DNA from: Spirochaetes bacterium GWB1_60_80
GTDB lineage: Bacteria; Spirochaetota; Spirochaetia; Treponematales; UBA12059
Length of the DNA: 64,000 bases
Assembly (NCBI GenBank): GCA_001829185.1
Contig: MIAR01000053.1
Span: 62,001 to 126,000 of the forward strand
Reading direction: 5' to 3'
Under the pieces are notes generated by a model that made no database searches, was not told where the DNA came from, and saw only the letters and a list, made by a program, of their open reading frames with translations. Position numbers and translations under genes: made by a program. Below, piece after piece: positions 47,419 through 56,642 of the stretch (positions are counted from its first letter, which is position 1; every line of letters starts with the position of its first letter).

Positions 47419-48417
47419 ATGCTGAGCGTCCACCTACTGGGCGGTCCGGAGACCGGCCGCCGCAACGATTTCATCGCCCAATTGCGCAAGCAATGCCTGC
47501 AAGCCTGGCGCGAAGAACCGGAAAACCATAAACTCTATGCCCAGGACTGCGGTGTCAGCCAACTGCTCGACCTCTTAATGAACGGCTCGCTCTTCGCGGT
47601 CGGTAAATTCGTCGTCTACATGGGGGCCGAGCAGATCAAGGGTAAAGCCGACGTGCAGGCCTTACTGGGCTACATCCGCAAGCCGGCCGCCAACACCGTC
47701 CTGGTGCTGGTGTCTGAAACCTATGGCATCGACAAGACACTGGAAGACGCCCTGCCCAAGGAAGCCCGTAAAATCTTCTGGGAACTGTCTAGCGGTGAGA
47801 TGGAACGCTGGGTAGGCGATTACTTCGCCGGCAAGGGCATTCACATCGACGCCGAGGCTCTGGAATTGATCCTGGAGCTGGTGGAAAACAACACCGACGC
47901 CCTGCGCCTGGAATGCTCGCGGCTGGCGCTATTCTTCCCGCACGGCGCCCGCATCGGCGAAGACGACATCGAGCGCTATATCGCCCACAACCGCAGCGAA
48001 GACGCCTTCAGCCTGTTTGACCGCATGGCCACCGGCAACCTAGAACAAGCCCTGGAAACCTGGTCGGCTATTTTGGCCTCACGCGAAGGCAACGGCGTCA
48101 GCCTGATGGCCGGGCTGCTCTGGAGCCTGCGCCGCCTGGCCAGCCTGCACGAGGCCATGGCCAACGGCAACCCCTTCGAGCAGGCCGCCCGCAGTCTGCG
48201 CATCACCTCGCGCAAGTTGCTGTCAGTCTACGACAGCGCCCGGCGACGCTGGCCGGAAAAACTCTGTCGACAGCTGCTCGCCTTTGGCGTCGAAACCGAC
48301 ATCCAACTGCGGGCGCTTGGCTCCGGCCAGGAGCGTATCCTGGTGGAGCTGTTCCTGTATGGCTGCCTGCACGCCAAACGCCCCGTCGCCCTGACCGTGC
48401 CCGCGGCGCTGTACTAA
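47419..48417 (+). CDS. holA: DNA polymerase III subunit delta
   Basis: 332 aa, typical length. The order of domains fits HolA: an AAA+-like N-terminal part with poor nucleotide motifs (LLDLLMNGSLFAVGKFVVYM), then helical segments with NNTDALRLECSRLALFF and the C-terminal collar region with LLWSLRRLASL. It loads the beta clamp. Sequence conservation in this family is low, so the call relies on domain layout as well as motifs. One base after lexA. Confidence 0.82.
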   Translation: MLSVHLLGGPETGRRNDFIAQLRKQCLQAWREEPENHKLYAQDCGVSQLLDLLMNGSLFAVGKFVVYMGAEQIKGKADVQALLGYIRKPAANTVLVLVSETYGIDKTLEDALPKEARKIFWELSSGEMERWVGDYFAGKGIHIDAEALELILELVENNTDALRLECSRLALFFPHGARIGEDDIERYIAHNRSEDAFSLFDRMATGNLEQALETWSAILASREGNGVSLMAGLLWSLRRLASLHEAMANGNPFEQAARSLRITSRKLLSVYDSARRRWPEKLCRQLLAFGVETDIQLRALGSGQERILVELFLYGCLHAKRPVALTVPAALY

Positions 48418-48424
48418 GCCACCC

Positions 48425-49057
48425 ATGAAGGCGGCGTGCGTTATTCCGGCCGCCGGTCGCTCCTCGCGCATGGGGGAATGGAAGCCGCTGTTGCCCTGGG
48501 GCCGGGCTACCATCATCGAAACGGTTATTGACGCTGTATTGGAGGCTGGCTGCCAAGCGCTGATAGTTACCGGCTACCGAGCGGCCGAGTTGGAGGCGCT
48601 GCTGGCCGGGCGACCAGAGCTGCACACAATCCGCAATCCCGACTGGGAGGCCGGCATGCTCGGTTCGGTGCGCTATGGCGTCCGCGCCGCCGCCGCGCTG
48701 GCCGAGCCCGGTGGCGCCGCTGGGCAGGGCGGCTGCCTGATCCTGCCGGCCGACATGCCACTGCTGCAGCCTTGTGTTATTAAATTATTGCTAGAGCGGG
48801 CCGCTCAGGAAACGGCTACCGGCCCCGACCGGCCGCTCAGCCTGTTCCCGACCTGCGGTGGTACAAGCGGCCACCCGGTCTGGCTGGATTACTGTTTACT
48901 GCCGGCCATGGACAAGCTGGAACCAGACAGCCGCCTGCGTGATTTCCTGCTGACACAACCCCACGCCTTCCTGGAATGCGGCGAAAGCGGCATCCTCCTG
49001 GACCTGGATACGACCGACGCCTACCGGGCGGCGCGGCCAGCCACCCCGCAACATTAA
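48425..49057 (+). CDS. MocA-like nucleotidyltransferase
   Basis: 210 aa GT-A fold protein. PAAGRSSRMGEWKPLLPWG is the NTP-binding signature of MobA/MocA-type transferases; LPADMPLLQP carries the metal-binding Asp; GGTSGHPVWL is typical of the molybdopterin cytidylyltransferase branch. Likely substrate is molybdopterin, but other sugar- or cofactor-nucleotide roles are possible. It ends the hprK operon, 7 nt from the convergent aminotransferase. Confidence 0.85.
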   Translation: MKAACVIPAAGRSSRMGEWKPLLPWGRATIIETVIDAVLEAGCQALIVTGYRAAELEALLAGRPELHTIRNPDWEAGMLGSVRYGVRAAAALAEPGGAAGQGGCLILPADMPLLQPCVIKLLLERAAQETATGPDRPLSLFPTCGGTSGHPVWLDYCLLPAMDKLEPDSRLRDFLLTQPHAFLECGESGILLDLDTTDAYRAARPATPQH

Positions 49058-49064
49058 GTCCGCG

Positions 49065-49916
49065 TCACTTCAGGCCCTGAATCACCAACCATTCGCCGTA
49101 AATCCGTTGCAGATCCGGTATAGCCGGGTTCAACGGCAGCTCGCTGGCCGTTCCGGGCGCCGCCAAGCCGTATACGGCGCGCACCGGGATGATATCGCTC
49201 GAGGTGCTGGTCATCAACAGCGACACTTTTCCCTGCCGCAGCTCGGACAGGTACAACGGACGCTCCTCCACCGTCACGCCGGCCGCGCTCAGGGCGGTGA
49301 TGATCGTGCGCCAGGTGATGCCGGCCAGGACGTCGCCCGACGGTGGCGTGAAGACCAGACCGGGCGTGCCGGCGTCCAGCCAAAACAAATTAGTGCGCGT
49401 ACCCTCGGTCAGCTGGCCGCGGTGGTTGATGAGCAAGGCGTCGTAGCAGCCCAGCCGTTTGGCCTCGCGAAAGGCGATAGTCGACAGCAGCATGCCCAGG
49501 CTCTTGGCCGTCGGGAAGGGCCGTTCGCCATGGTAGAGCAGGCAACTGACGCCGGCCCGGTGGGCGTCGGCCGGCGGCACCACCAGCGGCAGCTGGAAGG
49601 CGTACCAGTCGGCTGGCCGGTCTTCGTGGGCTATCAGCATCACCTTGATGGTACTGTTCTCCAGCCCGTTGGCCGTTATAAGGGAACGCAGCGCCGCCAC
49701 CAACTGGCCGGCCACCAGGTCGTGCTTAAAACCTAACAGGCGCGCCGAGGCCAGCAGTCGCTCTTCATGAAATTCCGGGAAATACAGCCGGCCGTCGCTT
49801 AGCCTGAGCACCTCGTAGCAACCGTAGCCATAGGTTATATCAATATCATCCAGGTTGAAACTGGCTTCCTCCAGCCGGCACAACCGGCCGTTATGGATTA
49901 TTGACTGCCCGAGCAT
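49065..49916 (-). CDS. Class IV aminotransferase (branched-chain or aminodeoxychorismate lyase-like)
   Basis: 283 aa PLP enzyme of fold type IV. The PLP Lys lies in TAKSLGMLLSTIAFREAKRL, followed by DALLINHRGQLTEGTRTNLFWL, which matches the class IV signature (E-G-x-x-x-N). YGYGCYEVLRL at the N-terminus is the substrate-side motif. Branched-chain aminotransferase, D-amino-acid aminotransferase and aminodeoxychorismate lyase are not separable by eye. It follows the chemoreceptor gene by 19 nt. Confidence 0.85.
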   Translation of the reverse strand: MLGQSIIHNGRLCRLEEASFNLDDIDITYGYGCYEVLRLSDGRLYFPEFHEERLLASARLLGFKHDLVAGQLVAALRSLITANGLENSTIKVMLIAHEDRPADWYAFQLPLVVPPADAHRAGVSCLLYHGERPFPTAKSLGMLLSTIAFREAKRLGCYDALLINHRGQLTEGTRTNLFWLDAGTPGLVFTPPSGDVLAGITWRTIITALSAAGVTVEERPLYLSELRQGKVSLLMTSTSSDIIPVRAVYGLAAPGTASELPLNPAIPDLQRIYGEWLVIQGLK

Positions 49917-49935
49917 CAGCTTCGCCCCCGACCGC

Positions 49936-51915
49936 TCACAATTGGTACCTGGCCACCTGGGCCTCCAGCTGGCTGACCTTAGTAAACACCTGCTCCATGC
50001 CGTGGCTAAGGCCGTCGAGCGCCTGGTTGATTTGTCTGGCCTCGGCCAGCAACTTGCCATTGAGGCCCAGGGAACGCAGGCGCGAATCGTCGACCCGCTG
50101 GATCATGGACGAGATATCGCCGATGGCCGACGCGGTGGTCAAGGCGCTCTGCTCCAAATCGGCCGCCATGGTGGCCACCGCTTCGAGCGAGCCCAAAGCC
50201 TGGCGGGCTCCGGAGGCCAGCTTGGCCGATTCGACGGCGTCGGCCTGGGCCTGATCGAGGGCGGCCTCGATTTCCCCGGTCAGATTGGCCACCACCCGTC
50301 CCATCCTGTCCAGGACGGCGCGGCCCTTGGCGTTGCTCTGGTCCATGGCTCCAACCAAGCCGGATATGCCATTGGCCGACTTGATGATGGTTTCGGACAA
50401 GACTTTCATCTCGCGCGCCACCACGATAAATCCCTTGCCGGCGCTGCCGGCGTGGGCCGCCTCGATCGAGGCATTCATGGCCAGCAAGTTGGTACGGTCG
50501 GCGATGTCACTGATGATGGCGGCGATCTCGTTGACCCGACCGCCCAGGTCGCTGATTTCCTGGGCACTGGCGGCCGAAGCCTGCAGGTCCTGGCGGCTCT
50601 CCTCGATGTTGCCAATCAAGCGGCCGAAACGCTCCTGGAAACGGGCGCTCTTGGCGGCCTCCTGCCGCAGCATCTCGTCGACCGCCTGGGCCGACGACAG
50701 CACCTCGCGCAAGCCATCGAACTTGCCGATCAGGGCATTGAAGGCGGTTCGCAGGCCGGCTTCCGTGGCGCGGATGGATTCCATGACGCGGACGGCGTCG
50801 ACCGCCTGGGTGGCGTTGCTGACGTCGACCTCGCTTAGTAGACCGTTGACCGCGCCGGCGCGAGTCACGGATTCGGCCGCTGCCTGCCGGACGGCACCCG
50901 AGGCATCAAACAGATCGGCGATCATGCTGCGCAGCTTTCGGAAGCTGCCGCCCAGGCTGGTAATGATGCTATTGAAGCCGCTGGTCATCTCGCCGATATC
51001 GTCGAAGCTAATCAGGGTGATGCGGGCGGTCAGGTCCATTTGGCCGGTGGCGTAGACTTTTATCTGTCGCCGCAGGTTGTTGATATGCTTCTGCATCTCG
51101 GTGAGCACGATGAGGAAAAGCAGCGCGGCTATGGCGACTAAAATACCGATCAGCGACAACGAGGTGGCCAGGCGGGGCTGGCTGGCCGCGCGCAGTCCGG
51201 CCGCGAAGGCCGCTCCGGCCGGCGCTTGCCCCAAGCCAGCCGCCACAGCCAGCCGATAGTGCTCCGTCGCCAGGCTCTGAATATTTTCCCAGTTAACGTA
51301 GAGGATGGCGCCGGCAAAGCCACCAATAAAGACAAACAGCACCAGCCCGGACAAGAACAGCCGGCCGCGGGTCGTTTCCAGCCGCTTGAGGCCGAGTATC
51401 GAAATGTCGAAGACCTTCAATTCGAGCCGGGCCTGGATGAGGACGATATTGATGACCCGGGCGGTGACGATGCCGTTGATGAAACCAAAGCTACTGGCAA
51501 AAATAATCCGTACCACCGCCACCCACGCTTCCATCGGCGCGCCTTTGGCCAGGTCGACCGTGAAATTGATGAGGAAGGCGAACAGATAGGCCGAGGCGCC
51601 AAACCAGAACAGGAAGCGCGGGATGGCGCCGAGGGCCGCCAGGGCCTTGCGGTAGCGCGCCGGATCGAGCAAGCGCAACGATGGCCCGACCACCATGGCC
51701 GAGGCGATGGGGCAGTAGATGAGGTAGACGACGATCATGGTCAACACGGTACACAGGCCACCCACCGCCAGCATGCGCCTGATAAAGTCGTCCCTGGCCG
51801 ATGTATCGTAGGCCAGGGCGGCGGGCATGAAGAAGGTGTAGGTGACCACGCAGAGCATGATGGTCAGGAAGGTAGTACCGAGCACCTTGGTGGTGAGCAC
51901 GGCGCTTTTTTTCAT
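49936..51915 (-). CDS. Methyl-accepting chemotaxis protein with six-helix membrane domain
   Basis: 659 aa. Six predicted membrane helices (first TTKVLGTTFLTIMLCVVTYT; last SLIGILVAIAALLFLIVL) take the place of the usual periplasmic sensor between two helices. A HAMP segment (TGQMDLTARITLISFDDIGE) and the coiled-coil signalling domain follow; the kinase-contact tip reads DRTNLLAMNASIEAAHAGSA. It should signal to CheA/CheW. The small extracytoplasmic loops suggest sensing within the membrane or through a partner. It overlaps the PurA-like gene by 4 nt. Confidence 0.9.
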   Translation of the reverse strand: MKKSAVLTTKVLGTTFLTIMLCVVTYTFFMPAALAYDTSARDDFIRRMLAVGGLCTVLTMIVVYLIYCPIASAMVVGPSLRLLDPARYRKALAALGAIPRFLFWFGASAYLFAFLINFTVDLAKGAPMEAWVAVVRIIFASSFGFINGIVTARVINIVLIQARLELKVFDISILGLKRLETTRGRLFLSGLVLFVFIGGFAGAILYVNWENIQSLATEHYRLAVAAGLGQAPAGAAFAAGLRAASQPRLATSLSLIGILVAIAALLFLIVLTEMQKHINNLRRQIKVYATGQMDLTARITLISFDDIGEMTSGFNSIITSLGGSFRKLRSMIADLFDASGAVRQAAAESVTRAGAVNGLLSEVDVSNATQAVDAVRVMESIRATEAGLRTAFNALIGKFDGLREVLSSAQAVDEMLRQEAAKSARFQERFGRLIGNIEESRQDLQASAASAQEISDLGGRVNEIAAIISDIADRTNLLAMNASIEAAHAGSAGKGFIVVAREMKVLSETIIKSANGISGLVGAMDQSNAKGRAVLDRMGRVVANLTGEIEAALDQAQADAVESAKLASGARQALGSLEAVATMAADLEQSALTTASAIGDISSMIQRVDDSRLRSLGLNGKLLAEARQINQALDGLSHGMEQVFTKVSQLEAQVARYQL

Positions 51916-53141
51916 AGTGTCTCCAGGTCGAGGTTGTTTCCGCAAAAGGCGCGCAGCGCCGCTGAATCGGCCGACGGGGAATAATAAACCCGATCGGGCG
52001 GCCAGTCCAGCCGTCGCACCAGTTCCGCCAGGCGAAAGCCGGGCCGTTGATCCAGGCAGGTGACCACCAGGTTCTCGCGGACTGCAAATTTGACTGGCAG
52101 GTCGGCCCGCTCGGCCCGGTCCGAAACCAGGGCGTAAGCCAACAACTCGGGATCCAGCTCGGCGCTTCGGAAAGCCCCCTGAAATCCGTTGTCGCGGTTG
52201 GTCTCAGCGTCCGCCGCCACCAAGGCAACTGGTTGGCTGGAGCTCATCGGCCCGCGGCCGTGGCGCGTCTGGTAGCAGCGGGTGACGCAGTAGAGGTCCA
52301 CCGGGCAAACCCGCCAGGCTGAGCCGGCTTGGTTGGCGCCACCGCCGGAATCCGCCAGCCCGGCTAGCAAGGCCAGGGCCGGCGCGCTGCCGGTGGAACT
52401 CCAGGTGACATGGGGGTAAATGCCGTGATGCTGGTCGAGCATCAGGCCCTGGTGACCCTCGAAAACCAAATGATCCTTGCCCGCCAGGCATTCCTCCAGC
52501 CCAGCCAACCGGTAGCAGGCGGCGGCGGCCCGGCACTGGGCCAGGTAGGCATCAAGGTCCAGGCTGTCGCACTCGGCGGCAAAGCAGCCGGCGAAGTCGT
52601 CGCCGGAGGCTGACCAGGCCGCCGCCCGTTGCCCATACCAGTAACGGATACCCTGCAGCTTCTGGCGCGCCACCCAGTCGAAGGCCAGGTCCTTGGCGTA
52701 GAGCGGCACGCCGGCGGCATGGCGCTCCACCGTGGCGCCGAAACCGACGCCGCAGGAGCCGTGCCCCAACTCGGCCTCGGCCGCCCGGTTCCAGGCGATG
52801 TCCCAAGGCGTGCAGACTTTGGCTAGCGGATGGATGGCCAACTCCGGCGACGGGCTCCCGGGCGGCAGGAGAGCGGTGAGGGCGGCCTGCTCGGCGGCGA
52901 TGGCCGGCGGAAAGACCGTACAGTCGCGGCCAAACCAGGTCGGCACGCCGCGTAAACTGCCGGCCCCAAAATTGCTGAAGACATGGACGAGCCCGCCGAT
53001 GGAGACCGTATGGCCGACCTGGTGGCCGCCACCGTAACGGATAACCAAGCTGGACTCCGGCCGCCGGGCGCACAGCCAGTCCACGGTGCGCCCCTTGCCG
53101 GCGTCTCCGAATCCGAGATCGATGACCATGGAAACCTGCAT
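51912..53141 (-). CDS. Divergent adenylosuccinate synthetase (PurA)-like protein
   Basis: 409 aa. The N-terminal block GFGDAGKGRTVDWL replaces the PurA G-D-E-G-K-G-K motif; the catalytic Asp is kept while the following Glu is Ala. GHTV retains the catalytic His. LVFEGHQGLMLDQHHGIYP and TRHGRGPMSSS match later PurA blocks. It is shorter than PurA, and its C-terminal nucleotide region has diverged. The start is uncertain: ATG 53141 or in-frame ATG 53129, both with weak RBS. A MITE-like element ends 4 nt upstream. Whether it makes adenylosuccinate is doubtful. Confidence 0.75.
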   Translation of the reverse strand: MQVSMVIDLGFGDAGKGRTVDWLCARRPESSLVIRYGGGHQVGHTVSIGGLVHVFSNFGAGSLRGVPTWFGRDCTVFPPAIAAEQAALTALLPPGSPSPELAIHPLAKVCTPWDIAWNRAAEAELGHGSCGVGFGATVERHAAGVPLYAKDLAFDWVARQKLQGIRYWYGQRAAAWSASGDDFAGCFAAECDSLDLDAYLAQCRAAAACYRLAGLEECLAGKDHLVFEGHQGLMLDQHHGIYPHVTWSSTGSAPALALLAGLADSGGGANQAGSAWRVCPVDLYCVTRCYQTRHGRGPMSSSQPVALVAADAETNRDNGFQGAFRSAELDPELLAYALVSDRAERADLPVKFAVRENLVVTCLDQRPGFRLAELVRRLDWPPDRVYYSPSADSAALRAFCGNNLDLETL

Positions 53142-53144
53142 CGC

Positions 53145-53315
53145 CTAGGAGCCTGTCGGACTTAGGATTTTGATCGGGCGAAAATGATCTGCGAGTGAAA
53201 AATTGGCACGGATTGAGGGCCATACTTCCTGTATGGCCCGATTGACGAGCCGATTTTGCGCCGCAGAACATCGAGTCCGGTCAAAAAGCACTGGTTTGAT
53301 CAGCATTTCTTTCAT
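53145..53315 (-). CDS. Short ORF inside the MITE-like element (56 aa)
   Basis: A frame runs from ATG 53315, 4 nt after GGGAG, to a TAG at the opposite terminal repeat. It ends KILSPTGS, so most of its tail is translated terminal repeat. It has no recognisable domain. It may be an artefact of the element or a remnant of a transposase end. Confidence 0.3.
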   Translation of the reverse strand: MKEMLIKPVLFDRTRCSAAQNRLVNRAIQEVWPSIRANFSLADHFRPIKILSPTGS

Positions 53316-53362
53316 TGTCTCCCAAAATATCTTTTAGCGTTCATAAATCCGACAGGCTCCTA
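53146..53362. mobile_element. 217-bp MITE-like inverted-repeat element
   Basis: The ends carry a perfect 15-bp inverted repeat, TAGGAGCCTGTCGGA (53146-53160) and its complement (53348-53362), beginning and ending with TA. Inside is a 9-bp hairpin GGGCCATAC/GTATGGCCC (53217-53239). No transposase is encoded. Its GC content is lower than its neighbours'. It separates the vWA gene, whose TAG stop lies in the right repeat, from the PurA-like gene, whose start lies 4 nt from the left repeat. The TA ends suggest mobilisation by an IS630/Tc1-type enzyme, but the family is not assigned. Confidence 0.8.
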
Positions 53363-54226
53363 AAGCATGTCCACGACAGTTGGCTCGGCGTCGCCAGGCT
53401 TAGCTGGCTTGGCCGGTTTGGCGTGCGGTTTGTGCCGGTCGATAACCAGGCGGGCGATGGTCCGGGCGATGCGCTTGTAGTCGTCCAGGATAATCATGTC
53501 TTGGCCAATCAGGTCGCGCCAGCCGGCCTGGCGCACGGCGGTGGCCGAGGCTGCATCATGGTTGAGGTGCAGGTGGTAGACGTTATAGCGCTGACGGGCT
53601 TCGGCCAGCATGTCCGCCGAGCTGATGCGCACGGGCTGCTTTTCCGGAGTCAACTTGCCAATAATCTCGGCCGGGATGTCCTGGTTGACCGGCTCGTCGC
53701 CGATGGTGAAGACAAAACCCTTTTGCTTGCGCTTCTCCCAGCAGTCGATGGCCGTGTGGCGGGCCGCGACCAGCCAGGCCAGGTTGTACGATTCGCAGTT
53801 GTTGCCGCCGCCGCCGCCTTCCAGCCAGACACGCGTCAACCAGCGGTCCAGCAGTTCGGCCGAGGACTCGAATTGGCCAATCTGGAGCGGAGCGTTATCA
53901 TAGACGAAATCGCCAATGCCCAGGAACAAGATCTGGGGGTCGGGAATCCCGGCGTCGATGATGGTGCCGACCAGCTCCGGCAACGATTCCTTGACAATCT
54001 GCTCGGGCACCATACCCATGCTGCCAGTGACGTCAAGCGCCACGATGATGGACAGCGACTCCGGATGCTCCTCCGAATCGCGCGATTCGCGCACCGTCAC
54101 CGCCTTGGGGTCCATCTGCGGGTCAATCGAGCGCGCCACGAAAATCTGCTCGCGGCTCTTGCCTGAATAGCCCTTGCTGACCTTGATCGATTCGTAAGCG
54201 CTGTATGAAAAGACGCCGTTGCCCAC
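53360..54226 (-). CDS. von Willebrand factor A domain protein
   Basis: 288 aa soluble protein. The vWA domain spans about residues 58-255 with a MIDAS-like DVTGSMG (D-x-T-x-S), a conserved FLGIGDFVYD and a glycine-rich loop GGGGGNN. A Lys/Pro-rich tail follows. It probably binds a divalent metal and a partner protein. Its TAG stop is contributed by the end of the MITE-like element, so the original C-terminus may have been cut. It lies 1 nt after the coiled-coil gene, a strict pair. Confidence 0.85.
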   Translation of the reverse strand: MGNGVFSYSAYESIKVSKGYSGKSREQIFVARSIDPQMDPKAVTVRESRDSEEHPESLSIIVALDVTGSMGMVPEQIVKESLPELVGTIIDAGIPDPQILFLGIGDFVYDNAPLQIGQFESSAELLDRWLTRVWLEGGGGGNNCESYNLAWLVAARHTAIDCWEKRKQKGFVFTIGDEPVNQDIPAEIIGKLTPEKQPVRISSADMLAEARQRYNVYHLHLNHDAASATAVRQAGWRDLIGQDMIILDDYKRIARTIARLVIDRHKPHAKPAKPAKPGDAEPTVVDML

Positions 54227-54227
54227 T

Positions 54228-54578
54228 TTACACCTCCAAGGTCTGGCCGAAGAGATACTGGTAGCGCTGGCGAGCCAGCTCCAGCTTGATCTCCAGGTTG
54301 CGGATCTTGACGGCCAGCTCGAGGTCCCGGGCGACGTAATCCTTGGAGTCGAAATCGGAGGCTAGTACCAGGCTGGTCGCCTCGGCCGGACTCAGGTCAA
54401 GCATGTTCTCCTGCTCGCGGCGCAGTTTCTTGATGGTCAGGGCCAAGTCCTCGACCTCGCGCTTGTAGATCAACTGGGCATCCTCGGCGATGGTGGCTGC
54501 CCGGTCTTCACGGATCTTGGCGTTGTTGCGCTTCAGCGAATCGATGAAGGCGCCGGCTACATTGGTATCATCTGCCAT
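54228..54578 (-). CDS. Small coiled-coil protein paired with the vWA protein
   Basis: 116 aa, almost all predicted helix and highly charged. Two coiled-coil stretches (about residues 35-62 and 82-110) flank a short loop with DLSPAEATSLVL. No membrane helix or known domain is visible. AAAGGAG lies 6-7 nt before ATG. The one-base gap to the vWA gene suggests the two products form a complex. Confidence 0.75.
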   Translation of the reverse strand: MADDTNVAGAFIDSLKRNNAKIREDRAATIAEDAQLIYKREVEDLALTIKKLRREQENMLDLSPAEATSLVLASDFDSKDYVARDLELAVKIRNLEIKLELARQRYQYLFGQTLEV

Positions 54579-54673
54579 GATGGATCTCCTTTGGGTCGCT
54601 TGCGGTTAGCTGGAAACTCGACGCGGCCGTCACTGGTCCCGCATACCCAATTCTGGAGCATTCCGGGAAAATG

Positions 54674-55447
54674 TCAAGGCGCGGACGGCAGGTCCGGGCG
54701 GCGATAGTCCGAAAAATCCATCCGAACGCGGAAATATTTACGGATCAGCAGAAAACCGCCTTCGCCGGAGAAACCGACCGCCGAAACCACCAGGGCGCCG
54801 TCTGGAAGGATCTGGAACTCGATGTCGCCGTCAAAGCGGCTGACGAAAGGCGGCAGGGGTTTGAGGGTGTAGACCAGCCGTTGGGGGTGGCCATCCGGAT
54901 TGAAAAACAGTTCGCCAGCGGCGCCGAATTTGGGCCGCACCAGTTCGTACGGCACCACCAGCTGGCCGGTGCGCAAGACTGGCGCGGCGCGGCGCAAGGC
55001 ATCGGCCGCCTGGGCCGCAAAGGGTAGGATATCGGCCGCCGCCATCGACCCGCCGCCGAAGGCGCCGCCGGTTTCGCCGCCGTCGGCGCTGCGTCGGTCC
55101 TGACGGGCATACTCGATCCGGGTTTGGGCGCTGATGTCGCGGCCATCCTTGATCGACGACAGCACCTCGGTGACGGTTTGGCCGCCTACGTAGCGCAGCG
55201 CCAGCTCGGTGGTGGTAGTCGAGCTGACGCGCCCCCGGCTATCCAGGTCCTCGGACAGGATACGCATCCGCCCGGCCTGGTAGTCCTCGCCCTGCTGCCA
55301 GGCGGCCTGCGCGGCTAGCCACAGGCGGTTAAAGGCCGCCGGGTCAACGACGGCTAGTTGTGGCGCTGGAAGGTCTTGGTTGGAAGCCAGCCGGGCAACC
55401 AGCGAAAAAAACAGGACGGCGACCAAATTGGGCAAACGGCTTGGCAT
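54674..55447 (-). CDS. Secreted hypothetical protein (257 aa)
   Basis: ATG 55447 has GAGG 5 nt upstream. Residues 1-21 form a signal peptide (LVAVLFFSLVARLA) with no lipobox. The mature part is soluble: helices around FNRLWLAAQAAWQQGEDYQA, a Gly-rich loop (about 132-141) and a beta-rich C-terminal half. This could be a periplasmic lipoprotein-carrier-like fold, but I do not recognise a family. It stands between mglC and the coiled-coil gene. Confidence 0.7.
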   Translation of the reverse strand: MPSRLPNLVAVLFFSLVARLASNQDLPAPQLAVVDPAAFNRLWLAAQAAWQQGEDYQAGRMRILSEDLDSRGRVSSTTTTELALRYVGGQTVTEVLSSIKDGRDISAQTRIEYARQDRRSADGGETGGAFGGGSMAAADILPFAAQAADALRRAAPVLRTGQLVVPYELVRPKFGAAGELFFNPDGHPQRLVYTLKPLPPFVSRFDGDIEFQILPDGALVVSAVGFSGEGGFLLIRKYFRVRMDFSDYRRPDLPSAP

Positions 55448-55561
55448 GGTATCCTCGCTGACATGACGATTTCTTACTAGAGTTGGTTTCTTTTTCGACA
55501 CTCTTTGAAAATACTGCATCGCCCCTTGAACGGCAACGGACCGATGCGGTCGCCAAAAGGA

Positions 55562-55592
55562 TCCGGCGATAACGCAACGCGCTACCGCCGGA
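55562..55592 (-). terminator. Possible terminator after mglC
   Basis: TCCGGCG (55562-55568) pairs with CGCCGGA (55586-55592), and four T residues follow soon after on the minus strand. The loop is long (17 nt), so this is moderate evidence. Confidence 0.4.
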
Positions 55593-55613
55593 AGGAGGAG
55601 AAACGAGAGGAAA

Positions 55614-56642
55614 TCAGGTTTTCTTGAGGTATTTCTTGGCGTCCAGGGCCACCGCGGCGACGATGATGACGCCTTTGATGATATACTGGTAGTATTGTTC
55701 CATGCCGATAAAGGTCATGCCATAGCTGATAATGGTGAATAAGAGCACGCCGGTGATGGCGCCGGACACCTTGCCGATGCCGCCGGAGAAGCTGATGCCG
55801 CCCACTACGCAAGCGGCGATGGCGTCCAGCTCATAGCCATAGCCGGTACCGTTGTTGGCGCTGCCGATGCGGGCAGCTTCTAGGAAACCGCCGATGCCGT
55901 ACAGCACGCCGGCCATGACGTAGACCAGCACGATGGTCTTGGTCACATTGACGCCGGACACCTTGGCGGCCTCGGGATTGCCGCCGACGGCGTACAGATT
56001 CTTGCCGAAGGTGGTTTTGTTCCAGAGCACCCAGACTACGATGCTGACAATGACGGCGTAGATGACCAGGTTGGGCACCCCCAGCGTCTCGCCAATGACG
56101 AATTCGGTATAGCGCGGGTCAAAGCCGCCAATTGGCTGCGGACCAGGCGCGCCGGAGGCAAAGTAGATGGACAGGATGCCGTACAGGGTAATCATCATGC
56201 CTAGGGTGGCCAGGAAAGGGTGAATCTTGAATTTGGCCACCACGAAGCCGTTAATAGCGCTGAAGAAGGCAATAACCGCGCAGGAAATAAGCAGCGGCAC
56301 GAACAGCGGCAGGGGGGACAAGTCCGGGTAAAAACGCGAGGCGTAATCGGCGCGCTGCAAGAGCGAACCGGTGATTACGGCCGCGAAACCAACCATGCGG
56401 CCGAGCGACAGGTCGGTACCCTGGGTGATGATGATGCCGCCGACGCCGAAGGCCAGTATCAGGCGGACTGCGCTCTGGGTCAGGATGTTGCGGAAGACAT
56501 TGAGCGACAGAAAAGCCGGCTCGCGGACAATGATGAAAATGATGATGGCCAGAATAACCAGGTAGATGGCGTTCTTGACGAACAGTTCCTTCCATTGCTC
56601 CTTACCCATGGCCGAAAGCTTGATCCGATTCCCGCGGCTCAT
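55614..56642 (-). CDS. mglC: Galactose/methyl-galactoside ABC transporter permease
   Basis: 342 aa with eight to ten membrane helices of the ribose/galactose (BPD_transp_2) permease family. [20 protein letters not shown] and [11 protein letters not shown] at the end are typical of MglC. It forms the membrane channel for the sugar. The ATG overlaps the mglA stop (ATGA). Confidence 0.93.

Follow-up and report, generated by a model that had tools for sequence, protein, structure and literature searches.

A divergent homologue of the adenylosuccinate synthetase PurA, encoded in the genome of Spirochaetes bacterium GWB1_60_80, belongs to a tightly conserved gene cassette that is carried mostly by large tailed phages and is sporadically present on the chromosomes and plasmids of bacteria. 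The genes of this cassette travel together: the PurA-like gene is accompanied by a vWA gene and, in most viral loci studied, by a gene for either a coiled-coil-like or a kinase-fold protein. The PurA-like protein is best read as an NTP-dependent ligase that would activate the carbonyl group of a purine in a non-canonical substrate. Features of the window, that is, the whole stretch of 64,000 nucleotides of contig MIAR01000053.1 that was analyzed, are listed in Table 1. A literature search that took in few subscription papers returned no account of the cassette, which we take to be previously undescribed; those passages of a Kuttervirus paper that list both a PurA and a vWA gene do not link the two.

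Table 1. Genes and other features at the cassette locus (positions in the window)
Feature	Position	Strand	Length	Remarks
Class IV aminotransferase	49065..49916	(-)		PF01063; resident chromosomal neighbour
Methyl-accepting chemotaxis protein (MCP)	49936..51915	(-)		PF00015; local neighbour outside the conserved cassette
PurA-like enzyme, cassette gene 3	51912..53141	(-)	409 aa	Intact ORF; PF00709 2e-31, phrog_1211 2.6e-45
vWA/MIDAS protein, cassette gene 2	53360..54226	(-)	288 aa	phrog_2971 1e-41; MIDAS motif DVTGSMG conserved
Coiled-coil-like small protein, cassette gene 1	54228..54578	(-)	116 aa	Named by sequence appearance
Promoter-like site TTGACA-16-CAGAAT ahead of the cassette	54650..54677	(-)		Consensus match only, 10/12

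Family assignment and phylogeny

The PurA-like protein matched PF00709 with 110 bits over profile positions 2-275 of 416, and its best family was phrog_1211, which at 156 bits scored above the Pfam PurA profile. NCBIfam PurA models gave 83.8 of 402 bits, and all models remained at or below 84 bits against curated cut-offs of at least 368. Judged by this profile match and by the adjoining phrog_2971-type vWA gene (144 bits), the protein is a bacterial member of the phage family phrog_1211. Its AlphaFold2 model (pLDDT 91.2) matched solely PurA, PurZ0 and PurZ in the PDB at E <= 0.001 (Foldseek, best E 3.8e-22).

Phylogenetic analysis of 64 rows, with SH-aLRT supports from a quick search, resolved canonical PurA (96), PurZ (100) and the cassette family (99) as three separate clades, with the window protein outside the PurA clade and on a branch separate from PurZ. 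It grouped with the proteins of a Hahella MAG and of G212, a genome from another family of the window's phylum (support 99), inside a group (96) in which 38 of 41 rows come from phages. This position fits a transfer from phages to bacteria, the direction of which we infer. A canonical purA (487.7 bits) lies on another contig of the same genome, and a PF00709 scan of eight genomes showed a canonical PurA besides the cassette copy in each of the seven that carry the cassette. The first-pass annotation of this DNA had doubted that the gene was a housekeeping purA, had argued from the retained Asp against the PurZ type, had noted a differing C-terminal region and had proposed a phylogeny and a search for a second purA as checks. 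Its doubts were justified: given the second, canonical copy in the genome and a canonical clade that excludes the window protein, this gene is not the housekeeping one; the protein keeps Asp13 and falls outside the PurZ clade; and the PF00709 match stops at profile position 275, the C-terminal third being divergent.

Existing labels for the family are of limited help. Members from cluster C mycobacteriophages, annotated as '2-aminooxy adenylosuccinate synthetase' or 'PurA-like adenylosuccinate synthetase', belong to the same family by sequence, and our literature search returned no tested function for them. The former label is misleading, as it stands on both the true PurZ of phiVC8 and the cassette family.

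Conservation of the cassette in phages and bacteria

The PurA-like and the vWA protein were each searched by tblastn against 50,697 phage records. Each retrieved 207 isolate-phage records, with a near-identical host make-up (Mycobacterium 189 and 188, respectively, Rhizobium 10, Vibrio 6 and few others), and in each of the three cultured phage lineages inspected the two genes lie side by side. Of the 491 contigs that a scan of IMG/VR with the vWA protein confirmed, we studied the best 80: the PurA-like gene is carried by 78, and the remaining two break off at the contig edge. Conversely, among 80 loci selected through the PurA-like gene, 78 carry the vWA gene and the two exceptions begin at the edge of their contig, so that a vWA gene is present at every testable PurA-like viral locus; the two sets overlap in contigs and are not independent samples. 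The gene before the vWA gene in the 80 viral loci encodes the coil protein in 45, a kinase-fold protein in 27 and neither in eight, and never both. The order coil, vWA, PurA-like recurs in the Hahella MAG and in G212. Two upstream genes on the same strand in the window, vWA and coil, which the earlier annotation did not mention, are these conserved partners.

The vWA protein contains the MIDAS motif (DxSxS/DxTxS), with residues D65, T67 and S69 invariant in 50 sequences, and its model (pLDDT 90.8) matched vWA/integrin-I-type folds in the PDB (Foldseek E 3e-6 to 1e-4, modest TM-scores). The coil protein has no match in Pfam, NCBIfam or PHROG and shares a median identity of 62% with its viral homologues. 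Where readable, in few cases, the kinase-fold partners (for example, L031:6762-7964) have HGN or HRG instead of the HRD catalytic loop, which suggests that they may be pseudokinases; some of their N-termini match DnaJ weakly. A pyruvate-kinase-barrel-like gene (L027:7517-8443; G006, a genome of the window's own family) lies between a long vWA gene and the PurA-like gene of a kinase-type cassette. At L032:8001-9029, on a Rhodovulum plasmid, we found no PurA-like gene beside the regulator, kinase-fold and vWA genes, the last of which is annotated as a TonB-dependent receptor.

Among bacteria the cassette has a sparse, patchy distribution: it is present in 11 of the 393 genomes scanned from the window's phylum, distant kinase-type forms included, and in 6/398, 3/385 and 7/369 genomes of other groups, these last three groups overlapping. 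An R2K ATP-grasp gene follows the PurA-like gene in 22 of the 27 kinase-type viral loci (for example, L048, L054 and L056-L061) and in no coil-type locus, and a HAD_SAK gene is often found upstream in kinase-type phages. TROVE (Ro-like) genes lie near the cassette in eight coil-type viral contigs and occur in all three cultured cassette phage lineages (for example, L026:12354-13862, L108:6865-8634, positions 127477-128508 of the L025 record and 140589-141332 of the L024 record). These neighbours hint at ligase and RNA-repair settings. TROVE was rejected as an obligatory partner, as few other contigs have it and many TROVE phages belong to groups lacking the cassette. None of the three cassette proteins of the window matched a known defence system in PADLOC.

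Phage homologues of PurA are usually labelled adenylosuccinate or 2-aminoadenine synthetases. The part of a 2026 survey that counts 481 phage PurA-homologue proteins and assigns 147 phage sequences to PurZ does not discuss the rest (PMC12884076); our results suggest that many of these non-PurZ homologues belong to one obligate cassette of vWA and coil or kinase-fold genes.

Active-site residues

Residues were surveyed in 85 family members in the numbering of E. coli PurA, two members being gapped at the first positions. Asp13 and Lys16 (83/83 each), His41 and Gln224 (85/85 each) and Asp333 (83/85) are kept. The window protein has the loop GDAGKG and retains Asp13, Lys16 and His41 (its own His44), with Glu14 replaced by Ala. 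These features had been read correctly in the first-pass annotation, which had singled out the Glu-to-Ala change; the change is real, but Ala is a minority variant at position 14 (E 71, A 4, C 3 and S 3 of about 83), and the informative trait is the remodelling of the nucleotide and donor pockets. There the family shows the uniform changes N38Q (83/85), T129 to C or V (83/85), V273H (85/85) and T301Q (84/85), together with the loss of R131, R143 and R303, the alignment of the loop 298-306 being uncertain owing to length differences. The window protein shares these alterations, with Q, C, G, H, Q and A at N38, T129, R143, V273, T301 and R303, respectively. Residues of phosphoryl transfer and base activation are retained, and the nucleotide and aspartate pockets are uniformly altered.

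In the structure of S-2L PurZ, the base pocket includes the counterparts of N38, T129, Q224 and V273, and PurA uses R303 to contact aspartate and the O2' of the ribose (PMC8342488); the correspondence with the cassette family is our own mapping. As the altered residues map to the base pocket and to ribose and aspartate contacts, the changes concern substrate recognition, and the activation chemistry seems to be retained. PurZ in the same alignment is also missing part of the aspartate loop and yet uses aspartate (PMC8342488), so the loss of aspartate-loop residues is no proof of a different amine donor.

The cassette enzyme is distinct from both known relatives. With PurA (PF00709, TIGR00184) it shares the fold, a GD(E/A)GKG loop and the five kept residues, but it is only about 16-24% identical, has the substitutions and losses described above, forms a separate clade, lies in a vWA cassette and coexists with a purA elsewhere in the genome. 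PurZ/PurZ0, the 2-aminoadenylosuccinate synthetase of Z-genome phages, is likewise a phage-borne PurA relative of the same fold (7vf6, 7odx and 6fm1 were matched). However, both PurZ sequences in our alignment have Ser for Asp13, a replacement also given in a passage of PMC12884076, and keep N38, T129 and V273, whereas every cassette-family member that has the position carries Asp rather than Ser or Gly. No datZ/mazZ or dutZ/dmtZ gene was recognised directly beside the cassette.

These residues bear directly on the possibility that the protein is a second adenylosuccinate synthetase, catalysing the PurA reaction, which phages would have taken up to increase the supply of AMP and some bacteria would have retained. 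Its PurA fold and the retained Asp13, Lys16, His41, Gln224 and Asp333 would suit such a role, and a phage-encoded PurB, sought as a partner in 24 records and found in none, could be replaced by that of the host, a passage of PMC12884076 describing the use of host enzymes by PurZ phages. We nevertheless regard a second synthetase as rather unlikely, given that N38, T129 and V273, which are common to PurA and PurZ, are uniformly replaced, that R303 and R143 are lost, and that the family forms a separate deep clade with strict vWA linkage. To our knowledge, such linkage is known for no PurA.

In an 800-aa phage PurA-like protein (L109:6933-9335), the catalytic 'AGH' motif is immediately followed by a long insertion, which thus lies at the His41 site. 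The ends of this insertion are splice-like (Cys ... His-Asn-Thr) and its middle is homing-endonuclease-like, so that it is apparently an intein.

Regulatory neighbours and proposed function

We consider it reasonably probable that the cassette encodes an NTP-dependent ligase with the activation chemistry of PurA, acting on a purine-like substrate other than IMP plus aspartate. In this scheme the 6-oxo group of a purine-like ring would be phosphorylated at the expense of an NTP, probably GTP, and the activated ring would then be coupled to an amine, as in PurA. vWA domains are known for Mg-dependent protein binding; the vWA and coil or kinase-fold proteins would be indispensable partners, either presenting the substrate to the enzyme or controlling its activity.

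The bacterial loci offer an initial hint as to the metabolite. Among 24 of these, a non-random draw including some close relatives, profile matches place a Nudix domain and an NrtR-type winged helix in a neighbouring, divergently oriented gene at 11, and six such genes tested directly against Pfam matched NrtR_WHD at E 2e-15 or better. Two more bacterial loci, both on plasmids of Actinomycetota, carry a Nudix gene just downstream of the cassette. NrtR-type regulators have been reported to sense ADP-ribose (PMC9503650), and since bacterial cassettes often adjoin one, we favour, as a guess, a substrate of the NAD/ADP-ribose type or another nucleoside-diphosphate-X. A nucleotide with an extended 5' phosphate would also explain the lost 5'-phosphate clamp. 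Against this guess, no NrtR-type gene lies next to the window cassette, the 80 viral loci gave a single weak match, and the ligand of a regulator need not be the substrate of the enzyme. A fuller version, in which an NrtR-controlled, vWA-dependent PurA-like ligase modifies the purine of an NAD/ADP-ribose-type molecule, with phages rewriting or neutralising host nucleotide signals and bacteria holding the counterpart, is offered tentatively, as possible but rather unlikely. The NAD/ADP-ribose conflict systems of PMC9503650 resemble the cassette in combining a Nudix-winged-helix regulator and a vWA protein in a phage-host setting; they differ in being centred on an ADP-ribosylglycohydrolase, a gene that we did not recognise at cassette loci, and the paper makes no mention of PurA.

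The phage-dominated distribution, and the position of some loci beside replication-type genes (RecA-like, clamp-loader-like and DNA ligase), could instead indicate an enzyme that makes a precursor for modified phage DNA, in parallel to PurZ and with a different modified purine. This seems improbable to us, as bacterial chromosomes and plasmids carry the cassette too, often with the NrtR-type regulator next to it, and as vWA and kinase-fold partners are, as far as we know, not typical of base-modification cassettes. Less probable still is a catalytically silent NTP-binding switch that regulates the vWA/coil complex. The remodelled pockets, and the HGN or similar loop in the few readable kinase-fold partners, which may make the partners pseudoenzymes, would allow such a switch; D13, K16, H41 and Q224 are, however, essentially invariant over 85 diverse members, and the intein-like insertion of L109 coincides precisely with the His41 motif, inteins tending to occupy essential active sites.

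The preferred reading, a ligase acting on a non-canonical purine-like substrate, is open to genetic analysis, the cassette occurring in the well-studied cluster C mycobacteriophages, in which knockouts are feasible. Should the product be a new nucleotide derivative, it would represent new phage-host chemistry.

The chemoreceptor and the chromosomal site

The first-pass annotation had coupled the PurA-like gene to the adjacent chemoreceptor and had suggested a specialised nucleotide-modifying or sensory role. Both the overlap, in which the MCP frame starting from the ATG at 51915 shares exactly 4 nt, ATGA, with the stop of the PurA-like gene, and the class IV aminotransferase gene downstream are present as it described, and a nucleotide-modifying role remains likely. 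The sensory part finds no such support: we sought an MCP at about 100 other cassette loci and found it at none of the 80 viral and about 20 other loci, the Hahella and G212 cassettes, which bear on the synteny check that the annotation had proposed, included. The chemoreceptor link therefore looks like a local accident, and a nucleotide-signal enzyme feeding the adjacent receptor is hardly credible, even if the ATGA overlap suggests that translation of the two genes is coupled in this genome, since the closest MCP homologues of relatives are located at other sites and the congener G001 has a different gene at this place.

In G001, the mgl operon, a homologue of window positions 54674-55519, the aminotransferase and a nucleotidyltransferase-like gene follow in the same order as in the window, and an MscS-like gene stands where the window has the cassette and the MCP; there is no cassette there. 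The aminotransferase, 52% identical between the two genomes, is therefore a resident gene. Either the window genome gained the cassette, perhaps with the MCP, or the congener lost it. As both flanks are conserved in G001, a prophage at this position was ruled out.

Within positions 48000-56000 there were no Rfam matches to structured RNA, and the 218-nt gap between the vWA and PurA-like genes (53142-53359) holds just one 56-aa open reading frame, without support. The base composition of the cassette is not distinct, and four promoter-like sites were found in the region against 0.7 expected. Upstream of the cassette, positions 54674-55519 encode a 281-aa protein of unknown family that was matched in 10 of 25 related genomes, its own included.
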